Source: Methylophaga sp. | GTDB lineage: Bacteria; Pseudomonadota; Gammaproteobacteria; Nitrosococcales; Methylophagaceae | NCBI GenBank assembly: GCA_002733715.2 | Contig: NVWQ02000016.1 | Span: 1 to 64,000 of the forward strand | Direction: 5' to 3' | DNA length: 64,000 nt | Shown here: in pieces, positions 1,632-10,312 of the stretch | How the letters are laid out: every line of letters starts with the position of its first letter | How positions within the stretch are numbered: the first letter of the stretch is position 1 | Notes under the pieces: generated by a model | What the model was told of the DNA's origin: nothing | What the model saw: the letters and a program-made list of their open reading frames with translations, nothing else | The model's database searches: none | Translations under genes and position numbers: made by a program

Positions 1632-1819
1632 CTTTATATCTCCTAAATATACCCTAGTAAATTTGTAGAGTTATCTAATATGACACAACACTACATTCTT
1701 GGTTTCATGTGTATTTCCTTTATTAGGCAGGATTATTTCACCACACTTTAATCATAAAAAATCCCCCCTTAAAAAATTAAGAGGGGATTTAATGTTAATC
1801 CTTAATAATAAAGACGTTA

Positions 1820-2788
1820 TTACGGTATATAAACACCCCAAGGCATTTTCCCAACAGGTATTGTTTCTATCACTTCAAGCTTCTTTGTATCAATAACTGA
1901 GATAGTATGAGATCGTCCATTGGCAACATAAAGCTTAGAATCATCCGATGTTAATCCCATATTCCAAGGACGCTCACCTACAGGAATGCTTTTTATTACA
2001 AAATCACCATCTGTATCAATCACATCAACGGTGTAAGATTTACCACCTGAAATATAAACACGTTTGCCGTCTGATGATACTTTGACACCATTAGAACGCT
2101 CACCCGTATTAATTGTAGTAAGCAATGTCCAATCAAACGTATTCCATACCTCGGTTACATTTTCTGATTCATTAGCAACATATAGTTTTGTACCATCGGG
2201 AGTAAAGCCCATACCGCGTGGGTGACCCGCCGCAGGAAGTGTTCTGATGATTTTGGGGTTAATTGCATCAATTACATCTACAGAATCTGAGCTTTCTTGA
2301 CTCGCTACCACCCACTTGCCATCAGGTGAATAAACGCAATGTTCTGGTGCATCTCCCATCACCTTAAGTGTCGCTGTTACAGAAAAACTTGCCACATCAA
2401 TAAAAGAAACAGTTGTCGCTTCTTCTTCACAAACAACCAACGTTTTACCGTCAGGAGAAATATCAAGCCCTTCAACACCTTCACCTATGGCTAATCTATT
2501 CGCGACTTGTCGTGTAGCAAGATCCACTTTAATCAACTCTGCTGCATCGGCATCAACAACATATAAAAACTGTTCGTCATTATCTATAACCGTTGCATTA
2601 ATTTCATCACCTAAGCGTCCTGATGCAGGAATTATACCTACGACCCTATCTGTTGCAGTGTCAATCATTGAAATAGTGGCATCTTTTTCATTAATGGCAT
2701 AAGCCGTTTCACCTTGCATTGATTTAACTGACATAGTTTGACATGCCGACAGCACCAATACCAAAGGCAATAATTTTAATGTTTTCAT
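1820..2788 (-). CDS. YVTN/PQQ-associated beta-propeller lipoprotein
   Basis: Lipobox LSAC; repeated SPDGKTLVV / TPDGTKLYVAN / SSDGKRVYISGG blades. Confidence 0.85.
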   Translation of the reverse strand: MKTLKLLPLVLVLSACQTMSVKSMQGETAYAINEKDATISMIDTATDRVVGIIPASGRLGDEINATVIDNDEQFLYVVDADAAELIKVDLATRQVANRLAIGEGVEGLDISPDGKTLVVCEEEATTVSFIDVASFSVTATLKVMGDAPEHCVYSPDGKWVVASQESSDSVDVIDAINPKIIRTLPAAGHPRGMGFTPDGTKLYVANESENVTEVWNTFDWTLLTTINTGERSNGVKVSSDGKRVYISGGKSYTVDVIDTDGDFVIKSIPVGERPWNMGLTSDDSKLYVANGRSHTISVIDTKKLEVIETIPVGKMPWGVYIP

Positions 2789-2862: not shown

Positions 2863-3540
2863 TCACCAGTTCCGGCGTTTTTCATCACCATTGAAAACAG
2901 TACGGATCCAAGCAATTATTTTCCACAGTTCCTCATCTGTTTTAATAATGTCACCATAAGGAGGCATGGGGCCAACTACGCCCTCCATCCCTTTACGGTA
3001 ATAACCTAACTTAGCTAAGTCATCGCTCCCTAGAGTAATCAAGCGAAATAAGGTGTCGTCATCGCTGCCATAAACAAATACTTCATTCGATAATGGTGGA
3101 CACATACCGCCACCACCGGTACCACCATGACAGCCATTACAACTATTTCCCATAAAGCGTTTATGGCCTTCTAATTCCATTTCTTCATCATCGGTGTACG
3201 GGTTTTTCAATTTACCTTTAGGCGTTGATGCAACACGTTCACGCGGACTCATGCCCACATCTGAAATCATGCCTTCTTCAACGACTTTTTCTACCGAATC
3301 AGCATTTTCTTGACCAGGGATGTAAATCGAAACACCTTTTCTCTTTGGTTTCTCAGCTTTAGCTTTCGCACCTGCTGGTAGAGGAGCAGCATAAGGCCCG
3401 CCATCTGCAACCGCTACTTGAAAGCTTTCTAAATTAGTATCAATAGCTGCTGTTTCTTGTTGTTCGGCGTTACAGCCTGCCGAAAGCAATAGCATTACAG
3501 CCACTAATGTTGTTTTCTTAAATATCATTTTTCTCTCCAT
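2863..3540 (-). CDS. c-type cytochrome, cytochrome cL-like (XoxG/MxaG type)
   Basis: CNGCH heme motif, GPMPPYG axial-Met region, DEELWKIIAWIRTVFNGDEKRR C-terminus; adjacent to PQQ-ADH genes. Confidence 0.8.
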   Translation of the reverse strand: MERKMIFKKTTLVAVMLLLSAGCNAEQQETAAIDTNLESFQVAVADGGPYAAPLPAGAKAKAEKPKRKGVSIYIPGQENADSVEKVVEEGMISDVGMSPRERVASTPKGKLKNPYTDDEEMELEGHKRFMGNSCNGCHGGTGGGGMCPPLSNEVFVYGSDDDTLFRLITLGSDDLAKLGYYRKGMEGVVGPMPPYGDIIKTDEELWKIIAWIRTVFNGDEKRRNW

Positions 3541-3617: not shown

Positions 3618-5273
3618 TTATTTGCTTTGATTTTCTATAAACCGTGTTAGGAAATCGGCCGATTTTTGGGCTTTATCTTCCTTTGCAACATCTAATGCCG
3701 TTTGACCCAATTCGTTTTTCAATGAAGTATCCGCACCAGATTTAACTAACAGTGAAACCACATCGGCATGGTTATTAGCTGCGGCAATCATCAACGCTGT
3801 CACTCCACCCGCATTTTGTGCATTCACATCAGCTTTATACTGCGTCAACACTTGTGCCGCTGGTAACGAACCTAATTTAGACACAATCATTAATGCCGTA
3901 TAACCGGCCTCACCCATTTTTGTATCTGGGTTTGCATCACTGTCTAATAATGCGACAATCGCTAAAGGCTGGCCTTTTTGTGCTGCTAATCCTAACGCTG
4001 TACTCGAGCTAAGCTTTTCTACTAAATCAAGATCAGCACCATAGCCACCCGCGATTAAACGGATCATTTTGGGTTCATTAAGGTATGCCGCATGCATTGT
4101 AGCCGTCCAACCATCGGTATCAACGGCATCAAGATCTGCTTTATGCTCAAGCAAAGCTCTTACCAAATCAAAATTACCCCCTTTTACGGCAAGCATTAAC
4201 GGTGTTAGCCCTGCATTATCAGCTGTATTAATATCTGCACCTCGTTCAATCAAATAATCAACACGCGTAAAATCTTTCATTAATACTGAACTGATTAGCT
4301 CTTCATCAAGTGAACTACCTCCAGCCAGTGCTGCATCAATTACAGCAGGTAATGTCGTCAAATCAGATTGTTCGGTCGCTTGGAATTTAGCAACTACATG
4401 TTGTTGTTGTTTATAAGTCCCGTGTGATGGAATATCACCCGAGACAATGCAGGTATTACATTCAACAAGTGGCACACCAAAATCAACCAATATTTGTTTA
4501 ATTTCAGCACGTTTTTCTACTAATGCAGCTTCAATTTTCTTCAGCAACTCAGTATCTTGTTTTTTCAATCCAACAGAAAGCTCAAATTCCATCGGTAAAA
4601 CAGTATCAATGCTATTCATTGGCAATAATGCCAATGGTTTGCCACCATTCACTTTGTCAGTGTTATACCAACCGGCCAACGGCCCCCATGCAGCTGCAAC
4701 ATCTAGTTTGCCATCTACTACATCCTGTATTTGCCGTGTAGGTTGATTCGATTTAACCAAATCAGCATTATGACTGATGATATGAAGCTTTAGATTGGCC
4801 TTTTCACCACTCACGCCGTGCTCCATCAATTCAGTTCTCATCGCTGAGTGCTGAAATACGCCCACACTAAGCTCTTTTAAGCGTGGGTCATCTAAGCTTT
4901 TAAAATCATAATTTCTATCTGCGCGTGATGCTAAAACAAAAGTACTACGATACAACGGCGTTGATGTAATCATTCTGTCATTATCGGGCGACATGCCCAT
5001 CAATACATCACAGCTATTATTTTTAAATGTTTGGCGAGTTAATCCTCGCTCAAGATAGGGTCGATAAAAATAGCTTGTTTGTGTACCCAATGCTTCGGCA
5101 AGCACTTCGGCAATTTGATTTTGAAACCCTTCTCTTTGTGTATTTGATAAAGGCATATTGCCAGGATCTGCACAGATCCGTAATGCTACCATTTTTTCTT
5201 CAGCTGAAATAACAGATGTTGTACTTGCCAACATAACCGAGGCAGCCAATGCTACCTGTAAAAAACGTGCCAT
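3618..5273 (-). CDS. XoxJ/MxaJ-like periplasmic binding protein fused to C-terminal ankyrin repeats
   Basis: N-terminus ALRICADPGNMPLSNTQREGFQNQIAEVLAEALG (MxaJ/XoxJ-like); C-terminal half has ankyrin repeats (NAGLTPLMLAVKGGNFDLVRALLEHKADLDAVDTDGWTATMHAAYL...). Confidence 0.85.
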   Translation of the reverse strand: MARFLQVALAASVMLASTTSVISAEEKMVALRICADPGNMPLSNTQREGFQNQIAEVLAEALGTQTSYFYRPYLERGLTRQTFKNNSCDVLMGMSPDNDRMITSTPLYRSTFVLASRADRNYDFKSLDDPRLKELSVGVFQHSAMRTELMEHGVSGEKANLKLHIISHNADLVKSNQPTRQIQDVVDGKLDVAAAWGPLAGWYNTDKVNGGKPLALLPMNSIDTVLPMEFELSVGLKKQDTELLKKIEAALVEKRAEIKQILVDFGVPLVECNTCIVSGDIPSHGTYKQQQHVVAKFQATEQSDLTTLPAVIDAALAGGSSLDEELISSVLMKDFTRVDYLIERGADINTADNAGLTPLMLAVKGGNFDLVRALLEHKADLDAVDTDGWTATMHAAYLNEPKMIRLIAGGYGADLDLVEKLSSSTALGLAAQKGQPLAIVALLDSDANPDTKMGEAGYTALMIVSKLGSLPAAQVLTQYKADVNAQNAGGVTALMIAAANNHADVVSLLVKSGADTSLKNELGQTALDVAKEDKAQKSADFLTRFIENQSK

Positions 5274-5378: not shown

Positions 5379-7286
5379 TTACGGATAAACACGGAAAGCT
5401 GTGAATAAACCACCTTGTGGGATAAGGTTTAATCCAACAGTTTTTGCCATTGCAGTCGCGCCGATCGCACCATATTTATCAGAGAAATCTAAATCAGCTG
5501 TAACAGGTAAGCCTGCCCAACCGCCGATTCCGCTGAAGATACCAACATACTGTTTACCAGCAATTTTCCAAGAAATTGGGTTGCCGATGATGCCTGAGCC
5601 CAATTTTTTGTTCCAAAGCACCTTACCTGAATTACGGTCTACCGCACGGAATTGACCTTCCATATTACCGTAGAATGCTAAACCACCTGCAGTAACCAAT
5701 ACGCCACTCCAGTTTTGGTATGAATCAGGAATTTCCCAAGCTGTTTTACCGGTAACAACGTTGAATTTTTTCAACTTACCAGAAACACCTGGTTTTTCTT
5801 GATACATGTAAACGTTCGCAAATACATACACAGTACCTTGTTGAGTATGCGTACGTTCTTGAGGTTCATCTTCCATACACCAGTTGTTAGTAGGCATATA
5901 GAACCACTCTGGATCACTAGGATCTACCGCACCTGGTTGTTGATCTTTACCACCTTGAGCAGATGGACAAGCAGCCACATTACGACCACGTTCAAATGGA
6001 GAATGCTCTTTCACTTTAAGTGGACGACCGGTTACTAAATCAACTTTAGTAGCCCAATCCACTGTAACGAATTTATGAGCACGTAATAAATCACCATTTT
6101 CACGATCTAATACATAAGCAAATCCGTTACGATCGAAGTTGACCAATGCTTTATGCTGTTTACCATCAACTTTTAAATCAACAAGGATGTTTTCGTTTAC
6201 ACCATCATAATCCCACTGATCAAACGGTGTTTTTTGGTAAGCCCACACCATTTCACCAGTTTTAGCCTTACGCGCCATAATCGTCATAGACCATTTATTA
6301 TCCCAGTTACCTGAGTTAATTTTAGGGTTATATGCATTACATTTTTCATGTGTTAGGTTCTTGCCTGTTTCACCACAACGATAAGCAGGAGACCAATGAC
6401 CAGGGTTACCAGTACCCATATAAACGATGTCTAAATCTGCATCGTAGCTGAACCAAGCCCAAGTTGCACCACCACCAATTTTCCACTCATCATTCGGGTA
6501 GGTAATCATACCTAAATCATGACCGTAAGTTCCGTAGTGAGGATTATCTTTATTAGTTTCTGGTGTTAAACATACATCTTTATCAGAACCTGTACTATGA
6601 CATTTCCATACTTCTTTACCTGTTTGCAAGTCATAAGCAACAGTACGACCACGCGCAGCAAACTCATCACCACCAAAACCAGCGAATACTAAGCCACCAG
6701 CAATCATTGCAGGACCCGTATGTGTTTCACCTTTGTCAGGAAACGCATGTTTAGTGATCCAAATTTCTTCACCTGTTGAGGCATCTAACGCAATCAATAA
6801 TCCATCTAAGGTATGAAATACAACTTTACCATCTGCATAGTTCAAACCACGGTTAACGGTGTCACAACATGCACGCGGCACAGCTGACAAATCACGATCC
6901 GTTTTCTTGTTATAGTTCCAAACTTGTTTAGGATTATCTGGATCAGATAAATCTAAGGCTTGTACAATATTAGGCCAAGCACTGACGAAGTACATCATGG
7001 GTTTGCCGTTGTGATTAACTACAACAGGTTGACCTTCATGTCCACGCAAAGCACCGGTAGATTGTTCCCAAGCCATGTGTAAGTTACCAACCGTTTTTGT
7101 GTTGATATCTTTTAGACCACTATGACGTGTTAACGCATAATCACCACCAGGTGAACCCCAAAGGTTTTGATCTTTATTATTAGCAATGATTTCATCATTT
7201 GCAAATGCTTGGCCCGCTAGACCCAGCATAGCAGCCGCACTAAGTGCAACAATAGATGATTTCAAAGTAAAGTTTGATTTCTTCAT
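5379..7286 (-). CDS. PQQ-dependent (methanol/alcohol) dehydrogenase with lanthanide-type DYD motif
   Basis: PQQ-ADH repeats; vicinal Cys (RACCDT); TPFDQWDYDGVNEN carrying the extra Asp two residues after the catalytic Asp. Confidence 0.88.
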   Translation of the reverse strand: MKKSNFTLKSSIVALSAAAMLGLAGQAFANDEIIANNKDQNLWGSPGGDYALTRHSGLKDINTKTVGNLHMAWEQSTGALRGHEGQPVVVNHNGKPMMYFVSAWPNIVQALDLSDPDNPKQVWNYNKKTDRDLSAVPRACCDTVNRGLNYADGKVVFHTLDGLLIALDASTGEEIWITKHAFPDKGETHTGPAMIAGGLVFAGFGGDEFAARGRTVAYDLQTGKEVWKCHSTGSDKDVCLTPETNKDNPHYGTYGHDLGMITYPNDEWKIGGGATWAWFSYDADLDIVYMGTGNPGHWSPAYRCGETGKNLTHEKCNAYNPKINSGNWDNKWSMTIMARKAKTGEMVWAYQKTPFDQWDYDGVNENILVDLKVDGKQHKALVNFDRNGFAYVLDRENGDLLRAHKFVTVDWATKVDLVTGRPLKVKEHSPFERGRNVAACPSAQGGKDQQPGAVDPSDPEWFYMPTNNWCMEDEPQERTHTQQGTVYVFANVYMYQEKPGVSGKLKKFNVVTGKTAWEIPDSYQNWSGVLVTAGGLAFYGNMEGQFRAVDRNSGKVLWNKKLGSGIIGNPISWKIAGKQYVGIFSGIGGWAGLPVTADLDFSDKYGAIGATAMAKTVGLNLIPQGGLFTAFRVYP

Positions 7287-7488: not shown

Positions 7489-8304
7489 CTACGTTGATGG
7501 GATCGTGATCGGTTTTCCTTGTTGCCACGTTGAGGCGAGCTCTTTTGCTTTTGCTAATTGCTTTTCATCTAAACTAAATTCAAGCTCTTTTTTCATTTTA
7601 CTTGCTTCGCCATGACCATCGCGCGTAGCTAGATCTAATAAGGCATAGGCCAAAACCATATCCTTATTAACGCCTACACCTTTTTTATACATCATTCCCA
7701 TAGTGTATTGCGCCTTATAATGCCCTTGCTCTGCTGATTGCCTAATCCAGTCAGCTCCTATTTTCTCGTCTTTTTTAACACCATTACCTTCTAAATAAAG
7801 GATACCCAGCATCAGCTGCGACTTATAATTTTTTAGATTGGCTGATTTTTCAAACCATACAGCTGCCTCTGCTGGGCTTTTCTCCACTCCCCAACCTTTC
7901 ATATACATATCGGCTAAAGCAAATTGTGCCGCAGCAAAATCTTGGTCTGCCGCTTTGCGATACCATGCCACACTTTGCTCGGCATTTTTCTCAACCCCTT
8001 GTCCTTTGGTATACATCACGCCAAGATTATATTGTGAATTAATATCACCTTTCTCTGCAGCTTTAACATACCATTTTGCCGCCATTTTATAATCTCGAGG
8101 CACGCCTAGGCCATCATCGTAGAGTACCCCCATAATATATTGAGACTTAACGTCACCACTTTCAGCAAGCGGTTTGAATTCAGTCATGGCTGTTTGATAA
8201 TCGCCTGACATCATGGCAGACTTGCCCTGCGTGAAATCTGCATTAGCTAACATTGGTAGTGATGCTATTAATAATACTGCTACTGTTTTTAATTGTATTT
8301 TCAT
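7489..8304 (-). CDS. Sel1-like repeat protein, secreted
   Basis: Repeated AxxGDxxSQYxLGVMYxxGxGVxxxxxxAxxWYxKAA units; signal peptide. Confidence 0.88.
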   Translation of the reverse strand: MKIQLKTVAVLLIASLPMLANADFTQGKSAMMSGDYQTAMTEFKPLAESGDVKSQYIMGVLYDDGLGVPRDYKMAAKWYVKAAEKGDINSQYNLGVMYTKGQGVEKNAEQSVAWYRKAADQDFAAAQFALADMYMKGWGVEKSPAEAAVWFEKSANLKNYKSQLMLGILYLEGNGVKKDEKIGADWIRQSAEQGHYKAQYTMGMMYKKGVGVNKDMVLAYALLDLATRDGHGEASKMKKELEFSLDEKQLAKAKELASTWQQGKPITIPST

Positions 8305-8321
8305 TCTATTTCCTTAAAATT

Positions 8322-8963
8322 TCAACCTTCAATAATTCCGTGTCGAATGGCTAATCTCACCAACTCAACAGGACTATTAACCTCTAATTTTTGTTTTAAT
8401 AATGTTTGATAATTCGCTACGGTTTTTTGACCAATATTGAGTAATTTGGCAATTTCATCCACCACCTTACCTTCAGCAAGAAGGCGAAATATTTCAAACT
8501 CCCGTGCTGTCAATTTCTGAGTCGGATTATCATCACCCGACATACTTTGTAAGGCTATTTTCTGCGCCATATCAGCACTAAGATAGTTTTTACCCGCTGC
8601 TACCAGACGCACTGCATTGACTAAGTCTTCCGCGTCCCCAGATTTTGCAACATATCCTACTGCGCCCGATGTTAACGCCTGCGTCGCAAAGGTTGCATTT
8701 TCATGCATTGAGAAAATAATTATTTTTGCATTATTATAACGTGCAATAATCCTCCGTAAGGCCTCAAGCCCACCCATGCCCGGCATAGACATATCCATTA
8801 TCAATACATCAGGTAAACACTCGCCAAACACTCGATATGCTTGCTCGCCACTTTCCGCTTCAGCCACGACCTCAATTCCATCATGCTGCTCTAATAACCG
8901 CCGCACGCCTGATCGCACAACCGCATGGTCATCCGTTAACAATACCCGTATAGATGTACTCAT
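8322..8963 (-). CDS. NarL/LuxR-family response regulator
   Basis: Receiver domain (DDHAVVRSGVRRLLE, MDMSMPGMGG) plus LuxR HTH (LTAREFEIFRLLAEGK). Confidence 0.92.
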   Translation of the reverse strand: MSTSIRVLLTDDHAVVRSGVRRLLEQHDGIEVVAEAESGEQAYRVFGECLPDVLIMDMSMPGMGGLEALRRIIARYNNAKIIIFSMHENATFATQALTSGAVGYVAKSGDAEDLVNAVRLVAAGKNYLSADMAQKIALQSMSGDDNPTQKLTAREFEIFRLLAEGKVVDEIAKLLNIGQKTVANYQTLLKQKLEVNSPVELVRLAIRHGIIEG

Positions 8964-10312
8964 TTTTCACCTCTAGTTATACATGGCAATTCAATATTCA
9001 CTTGGGTTCCTTTATTTGGGAATGCCACAATCTCTAACACGCCGGCCAACCCTTCTACACGTTCTCGCATACCCGGCAATCCAAACCCTGTTGTTCTAAT
9101 AGATGTGTCAAAACCTTGTCCATCATCACTGACTGACAAAAAAATCAGTTGGTTTTTTTGACTCAGAATAATCTGAATATTTTCTGCTCGCGCATGCCTA
9201 GAAATATTGGTCAAACATTCCTGAACAAGACGATATAGTGTGATCAGTACTGCTTCGTCATAATCAGAAAACAGTCCTTCAATACTATATTTCACCGTAA
9301 TATCTTTATGGCGTTGCTTCCAACCATTAATTAATTCTTGCAAAGCGGCTTCTAAACCTAACTCATCCAAACCACTAGGGCGAAGTCGTTGCAAAATATT
9401 ATGCACAATATCCATCATCTGACGTGCTACGGTATCAATAGCTGATGCGCTCTCTTTAGAAGCTTCAATTGTTTTTGCTTTCAAAATAGCAGAGGCATCA
9501 ACATGAATAGCGGTTAAATGCTGACCAATTTCATCATGTAATTCTCTAGCAAGGTTTTTACGTTCCTCTTCTTGAACCTGAATCATTTGCTGGGTCAGAT
9601 GACGGTTATCGGCAATACTTTCTTCTAGCGTATTGGCCATCACATTAAATTTATCACTGATACGGCTTAACTCAGGCAAGGTAAACTTGGGTAACCTTGC
9701 CTCTAATTTACCTGATTCTAAATCTGTTAATGCCTCTAAAATATTATCAATCGGGCGCAAAGCTCGACCAACGAAATAATAAATAAGAATATTCACAACA
9801 ATAAAGAATATACCTACAAATATCAGCATGCCTTGCATTTCTTCCCATACTTCCGCTATTTCATAAGAAGGATCCGGGGTGATCACTAATTCACCTACAA
9901 TCCTGCCACCTCGATATACCATCCGCTTTGTTATCGGCATTTCATCGGTAACAGTATCCATCATGCTTACAAACCATTTTGGCGGAGCATCATCAGATGG
10001 CCTGGACTGATTGGTATCACGTAGTCGCCCGTGTGCATCATAAAAATCTATTTTCAGGTGACGTACATCGGTTAATTTATTTAACTGAAAAGTGCTTCCT
10101 GAGCCAACATAAGCAGGAGAGACTTGCCCAGAATTAAGGCTATACGCTAGAATTTCAGAATCTAGCATATGTAATGCCAAAATTGCCGTTGAGGCAATTT
10201 CAGCTTGAACATTGCCACGAGCATTTTGAATTGTAAACATCCCACCACCAATAATAAGTGTTAAAAACAACAACACGGTTATAATCAGGTTTATACGTAA
10301 CTTTAGATTCAT
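8960..10312 (-). CDS. Sensor histidine kinase (HisKA_3 type, HAMP), MxaY/MoxY-like
   Basis: EEERKNLARELHDEIGQHLTAIHVDA; FGLPGMRERVEGLAG ATPase; overlaps the RR gene by 4 nt. Confidence 0.88.
   Translation of the reverse strand: MNLKLRINLIITVLLFLTLIIGGGMFTIQNARGNVQAEIASTAILALHMLDSEILAYSLNSGQVSPAYVGSGSTFQLNKLTDVRHLKIDFYDAHGRLRDTNQSRPSDDAPPKWFVSMMDTVTDEMPITKRMVYRGGRIVGELVITPDPSYEIAEVWEEMQGMLIFVGIFFIVVNILIYYFVGRALRPIDNILEALTDLESGKLEARLPKFTLPELSRISDKFNVMANTLEESIADNRHLTQQMIQVQEEERKNLARELHDEIGQHLTAIHVDASAILKAKTIEASKESASAIDTVARQMMDIVHNILQRLRPSGLDELGLEAALQELINGWKQRHKDITVKYSIEGLFSDYDEAVLITLYRLVQECLTNISRHARAENIQIILSQKNQLIFLSVSDDGQGFDTSIRTTGFGLPGMRERVEGLAGVLEIVAFPNKGTQVNIELPCITRGEK

Follow-up and report, generated by a model that had tools for sequence, protein, structure and literature searches.

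How lanthanide-dependent methanol dehydrogenases acquire their metal and PQQ is only now emerging from MxaJ, as is the reason for their need of a J protein. MxaJ and XoxJ may bind the partly folded apo-enzyme and assist the insertion of PQQ and metal (as cited in PMC12997753). XoxJ of Methylorubrum extorquens AM1 (6onp) and MxaJ (5sv6; 9ism, a cryo-EM structure of MxaF with MxaJ) are exported proteins whose genes adjoin dehydrogenase and cytochrome genes. A XoxJ joined to another domain is cited in PMC8546591: cytochrome cGJ (XoxGJ), a XoxJ-cytochrome fusion, which in Methylacidiphilum fumariolicum SolV belongs to an XoxF2 system. In the XoxF1 clade, the genes of Methylacidimicrobium thermophilum AP8, the source of the enzyme structure 7o6z, run in the order xoxF1-J-G by their locus tags (PMC7907005). 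In Methylotenera mobilis 13, an excerpt of PMC4109929 describes a single XoxFJG set, gained by lateral transfer and related to alpha-, gamma- and NC10 counterparts; the J protein is named XoxJ, and ankyrin repeats go unmentioned in that excerpt.

The window, a stretch of 64,000 nucleotides of Methylophaga sp. DNA, shares with the AP8 system both the XoxF clade and the xoxF1-J-G gene order. Its J gene, xoxJ-ank, continues into an ankyrin-repeat domain. As in the XoxJ and MxaJ systems, dehydrogenase and cytochrome genes adjoin it, and the original prediction had correctly placed it between the two (5379-7286 and 2863-3540, both minus strand). The features discussed below are as follows.

1759..1790, minus strand: intrinsic-terminator-like hairpin of 14 pairs with a T-run (consensus scan)
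1820..2788, minus strand: gene for a PQQ-associated beta-propeller protein, closing the likely operon (TIGR03866, 4.6e-51, below the cut-off of that family)
2863..3540, minus strand: c-type cytochrome, XoxG/cL-like, with a weak MoxG match (about 59 of 80 loci have a homologue 3' of the fusion)
3618..5273, minus strand: xoxJ-ank, a 551-aa periplasmic-type XoxJ/MxaJ protein with ankyrin repeats (ORF, family profiles, fold)
3639..4328, minus strand: ankyrin-repeat domain, residues ~316-545, with an N-cap, five repeats and a C-cap (Ank_2, model)
4413..4460, minus strand: linker motif C272-x2-C275-x3-G279...P282-x-H284-G285-x-Y287, specific to ankyrin-fused J proteins
4464..5186, minus strand: J domain of the XoxJ/MxaJ type (TIGR03871), residues 30-270, a periplasmic-binding-protein domain in which C34 and C88 are invariant (profile, fold)
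5379..7286, minus strand: xoxF1-type lanthanide-dependent PQQ methanol dehydrogenase, 635 aa (identity, tree, diagnostic residues)
7489..10312, minus strand: genes for a Sel1-repeat protein, a response regulator and a histidine kinase, 5' of xoxF1 (order kept in several relatives)

Architecture of xoxJ-ank

The gene xoxJ-ank spans exactly 3618-5273 of the minus strand as a single uninterrupted ORF of 551 aa; stops abound on the plus strand. It had been predicted to encode a signal peptide, a J-like half and an ankyrin half, and this reading holds for the ORF and for both family matches, with the signal peptide recognised by eye. By eye, the N-terminal MARFLQVALAASVMLASTTSVISA looks like a typical signal sequence; after it come the J domain (residues 30-270), a linker in which a C-x2-C is invariant, and the ankyrin domain (residues ~316-545). 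Judged from its sequence, the product looks exported and periplasmic.

The J domain scores 229.6 bits (E 3.8e-68) against TIGR03871, the quinoprotein-dehydrogenase-associated J protein family, above the cut-off of 212.15; the product scores 133.9 bits against the MoxJ/MxaJ equivalog TIGR03870, below its cut-off of 258.1. phmmer matched the product to XoxJ 6onp (1.5e-35), MxaJ of 9ism (3.9e-31) and MxaJ 5sv6 (9.4e-30), with which it shares ~30% identity. Foldseek with the AlphaFold model gave the same relatives (6onp, E 5.7e-14, TMt 0.86; 5sv6, TMt 0.77; 9ism_B, TMt 0.77). C34 and C88 are invariant in 78 aligned fusion sequences. Family score, fold and gene neighbourhood thus back the predicted XoxJ/MxaJ identity, and with TIGR03871 above its cut-off and a XoxJ/MxaJ fold, the N-terminal domain does not fall into an unrelated solute-binding family. 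It is, in our judgement, very unlikely that xoxJ-ank encodes a conventional solute-binding protein that would deliver Ln3+, PQQ or some small molecule to an importer, its ankyrin tail being incidental. The periplasmic-binding-protein fold would suit such a role, as would a weak match to SBP_bac_3, under the gathering score. However, SBP_bac_3 is matched at 1e-5 in 9 of the 78 homologues and TIGR03871 in all 78, the ankyrin half is conserved over classes and phyla, and the first 12 kb, whose ORFs were gone through by reading and the six nearest also by profile, yielded no recognisable ABC permease or ATPase. An ABC-transporter reading was rejected for want of a permease nearby.

XoxJ 6onp and MxaJ stop at approximately the equivalent of residue 271 and have neither the CxxC linker nor ankyrin repeats. 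In the linker of xoxJ-ank, C272, C275, G279 and G285 are invariant across the 78 sequences and H284 is present in 95%. The linker reads CNTCI, and the haem c motif CxxCH is absent from the whole sequence. The C-termini of about 60 other J proteins were read, among which those partnering XoxF4 could not be assigned with certainty. They stop a little past the GVPL motif and have neither CxxC nor ankyrins, except for Methylophagaceae J proteins that continue into a cytochrome c domain with CxxCH.

The ankyrin domain, of six to seven repeats, matches Pfam Ank_2 over residues ~335-545 (1.7e-33, 115.5 bits against a gathering score of 27.3). In the AlphaFold model it forms stacked helix pairs, with pLDDT mostly above 90. 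The whole model has a mean pLDDT of 89.4 and a pTM of 0.64; both domains are predicted to be well formed, their relative placing being left open by the pTM. The top Foldseek matches are XoxJ/MxaJ together with ankyrin proteins or DARPins. Kinship with type IV secretion effectors or defence proteins was considered for the ankyrin half and rejected, since scores against NCBIfam AnkY, AnkH, AnkG and MzaA were 47-91 bits against cut-offs of 500-1400, low values that reflect generic ankyrin similarity.

The fusion is not a product of chance, since TIGR03871 and Ank families are both matched by all 78 aligned homologues and the model is of high mean pLDDT. A frameshift or misassembly was rejected as its origin, the architecture being the same in 78 sequences. 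GC3 is 31 in each half and 29 in xoxF; the two halves match xoxF in composition and so give no pointer to a recent graft.

The XoxF1 partner and the distribution of the fusion

The product of 5379-7286 is 58% identical to 7o6z, the closest solved chain, as against 44-50% to structures of other clades (XoxF2, XoxF5, MxaF), and it groups with 7o6z in a tree with support of 100/100. An Asp before the metal-binding Glu is diagnostic for XoxF1 (PMC8546591). The enzyme has this lineage Asp (Asp207, in GGDEF, 205-209) and the lanthanide Asp (WDYDG). Among fusion-linked enzymes the former is present in 71 of 72 and the latter in 72 of 72, which by sequence identifies the fusion-linked dehydrogenase as XoxF1-type.

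The loop after the metal-binding GNP motif has 22-33 residues in fusion-linked XoxF1 and 23 in 7o6z, compared with 10-11 in other clades. In this loop all 72 fusion-linked enzymes carry a cysteine pair, C304/C316, which is absent from 7o6z and from the other clades sampled. A second pair, C229/C239, likewise lacking in 7o6z, is complete in 64 fusion-linked enzymes and missing as a pair in eight; the product of 5379-7286 has both pairs. Such paired gain or loss is as expected of a disulfide, and the pattern suggests that C229/C239 and C304/C316 both form disulfide bonds.

A scan of species genomes with the xoxJ-ank product gave 268 relatives, and the best 80 of the 268 were examined as loci; in all 80 the match covers both halves (query ~30 to 540). 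The fusion is thus present in at least 80 loci of other species in Alpha-, Beta- and Gammaproteobacteria and a few Methylomirabilota. Hosts include Methylophaga-like MAGs, Methylophilaceae (Methylotenera, Methylophilus), Rudaea, Solimonas, Rhodocyclaceae, Hyphomicrobium, Methyloceanibacter, Filomicrobium and a Methylomirabilis MAG. In every locus with readable upstream DNA (77/77), the gene directly upstream of the fusion encodes a PQQ dehydrogenase 62-94% identical to the product of 5379-7286. One Methyloceanibacter marginalis locus (L069:2997-6080) has a single 1028-aa ORF in which J-Ank runs into a second exported substrate-binding-like protein; either a genuine fusion or a frameshift in the assembly could explain it. 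Matches on Mesorhizobium and Bradyrhizobium plasmids were set aside as plain J proteins beside XoxF enzymes outside the XoxF1 clade.

Because the ranking of the scan favours full-length matches, a second test of the linkage took XoxF as its starting point, with genomes drawn irrespective of J. A phylum-wide draw yielded two further XoxF1 genomes, both with the fusion. XoxF1 occurred in 24 of 398 Hyphomicrobiales genomes, one locus being ended by the contig end; each of the 23 readable genomes has at least one fusion, including one (G867) whose J gene is broken by a frameshift. In Methylophilaceae XoxF1 occurred in 20 of 187, again with one locus ended by the contig end, and the fusion is present in 19 of the 19 readable (one frameshifted). 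Loci with a flank of ~1500 bases show just the start of the ankyrin half. Among 59 relatives, seven have XoxF1 and six of these have the fusion. The exception (G031) has a xoxF1 91% identical to that of the window but truncated at residue 521, and J-Ank and the cytochrome are both missing downstream of it (L281, G031:C49), which represents either loss of the whole system or a misassembly. No J-Ank gene was found near two full-length lone XoxF1 paralogues (L122/L283 and L272/L282), the genomes of which have complete operons elsewhere. In Methylomirabilota, XoxF1 and the fusion occur together in two genomes only; the others read have plain J proteins and XoxF2-like enzymes, 64-67% identical to 4mae in the five compared. 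Three Hyphomicrobiales loci (L273, L276, L277) have tandem duplicated xoxF1 genes that share one J-Ank gene.

Methylotenera mobilis 13 is itself among the hosts (L050), and the fusion adjoins the sole XoxF1-type gene found in that genome. This locus is probably the XoxFJG island described in the excerpt of PMC4109929. XoxF1 operons labelled 'FJG' have a longer J than the label implies. The original prediction left room for the architecture to prove widespread and already described. Widespread it is, but the open-access literature, to which the search was confined, gave no paper on XoxJ together with ankyrin and, in wider searches, nothing relevant; the fusion is apparently undescribed.

Proposed role of the ankyrin arm

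Based on its similarity to MxaJ, the J domain most likely acts on XoxF1 as MxaJ does on MxaF, in maturation of the apo-enzyme. In the periplasm it would bind partly folded apo-XoxF1 and help PQQ and Ln3+ to enter, as proposed for MxaJ and XoxJ. The ankyrin half most likely serves as a second docking surface, on XoxF1 or on its cytochrome: it would hold XoxF1 in a clamp or else pass it on to the cytochrome. The clamp might sit on the 22-33-residue loop specific to XoxF1, directly after the GNP motif and stapled by C304/C316. We therefore propose, as the probable though far from certain reading, that xoxJ-ank encodes a J factor dedicated to the XoxF1 clade, in which the J domain matures the apo-enzyme and the ankyrin arm provides a second, clade-specific docking surface. 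The docking platform put forward in the original prediction fits this proposal, given the conservation of the ankyrins and their strict linkage to XoxF1. A second surface would let one cell separate J-Ank from the J proteins that serve XoxF5, XoxF2 or MxaF. A binding arm added to J in one enzyme clade, and kept across classes and phyla, offers a way into the question of what J recognises, and of how XoxF1, XoxF5 and MxaF are kept apart in cells that hold them.

Partial distance correlations (mirror-tree) were 0.46 for the J domain with XoxF, 0.27 for the ankyrin domain with the cytochrome and 0.21 for the ankyrin domain with XoxF. They tie the J domain to XoxF and do not single out a partner for the ankyrin domain. 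The slightly higher ankyrin-cytochrome value would favour a different role, in which the ankyrin domain has no part in maturation and is an electron-transfer scaffold that docks the downstream cytochrome to mature XoxF1. A cytochrome gene lies 3' of the fusion in most loci, and coupling of J to an electron acceptor has precedent in cytochrome cGJ (cited in PMC8546591) and in the J-cytochrome c fusions. We nevertheless think this unlikely, as no homologue of the 2863-3540 cytochrome is recognisable nearby in about 21 of the 80 loci (against about 59 with one), and ankyrin domains are general binders whose ligand the sequence does not name. Like cytochrome cGJ, xoxJ-ank joins a XoxJ domain to another domain in a xoxF system, but its partner is an ankyrin array without a haem motif, in an XoxF1 rather than an XoxF2 system.

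The cysteines of the linker allow a further reading, in which the CxxC is redox-active or metal-binding and acts as a thiol-disulfide helper for C304/C316, C229/C239 or the vicinal disulfide of XoxF1 while the ankyrin arm holds the client. C272 and C275 are present in 78 of 78 fusions and absent from other J proteins, just as C304/C316 is found in 72 of 72 fusion-linked enzymes and is absent elsewhere, including 7o6z. However, neither the AlphaFold model nor Foldseek places a thioredoxin fold around the CxxC, which is also kept in the eight XoxF1 loci without C229/C239, so that the two do not covary within the clade, and a structural disulfide accounts equally well for its conservation. We consider such a helper quite improbable. 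A more specific form of the docking proposal, in which the ankyrin arm recognises the XoxF1-only stapled loop by the active site, the CxxC helps to form that loop, and J identity sorts metal and cofactor loading among dehydrogenases, is speculative and rather unlikely to hold in full. The cysteine pairs, the CxxC and the ankyrins differ only between clades, with a single clade having them, and may reflect common descent rather than functional coupling.

Other J proteins and the genes around xoxJ-ank

The host encodes a second J protein (G000:C25:73361-74107, L002), of ~420 aa, with a C-terminal cytochrome c domain (CxxCH). J-cytochrome c fusions also occur in about ten loci of the same genus (L018, L021-L024, L026-L028, L030), and in G015 and G027 the fusion adjoins an XoxF5-like gene. 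They resemble cytochrome cGJ in idea, but with J first.

The four genes from xoxF1 to the beta-propeller gene all lie on the minus strand with intergenic gaps of 105, 77 and 74 bases, and on this basis likely form an operon, xoxF1-xoxJank-cyt-propeller. A consensus scan found nine terminator-like hairpins against 5.0 in shuffles; that at 1759-1790 is the strongest on the minus strand and likely marks the end of the transcript. The cytochrome scores 46.8 bits against TIGR03872 (MoxG/cytochrome cL), short of the cut-off of 147.8. Its N-terminus looks, by eye, like a lipoprotein signal (LLLSAGC), and it is probably membrane-anchored. The Sel1-repeat, response regulator and histidine kinase genes (7489-10312) are candidates for the regulator of the operon, and their order recurs in Methylophaga-like and some Methylotenera loci. 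Finally, 600-1631 on the minus strand encodes a 343-aa exported-looking protein without a Pfam match (a weak YHS-like match aside), homologues of which lie near XoxF1 operons in L034, L045, L048, L078, L081, L094, L100, L101, L105 and L273-L277.
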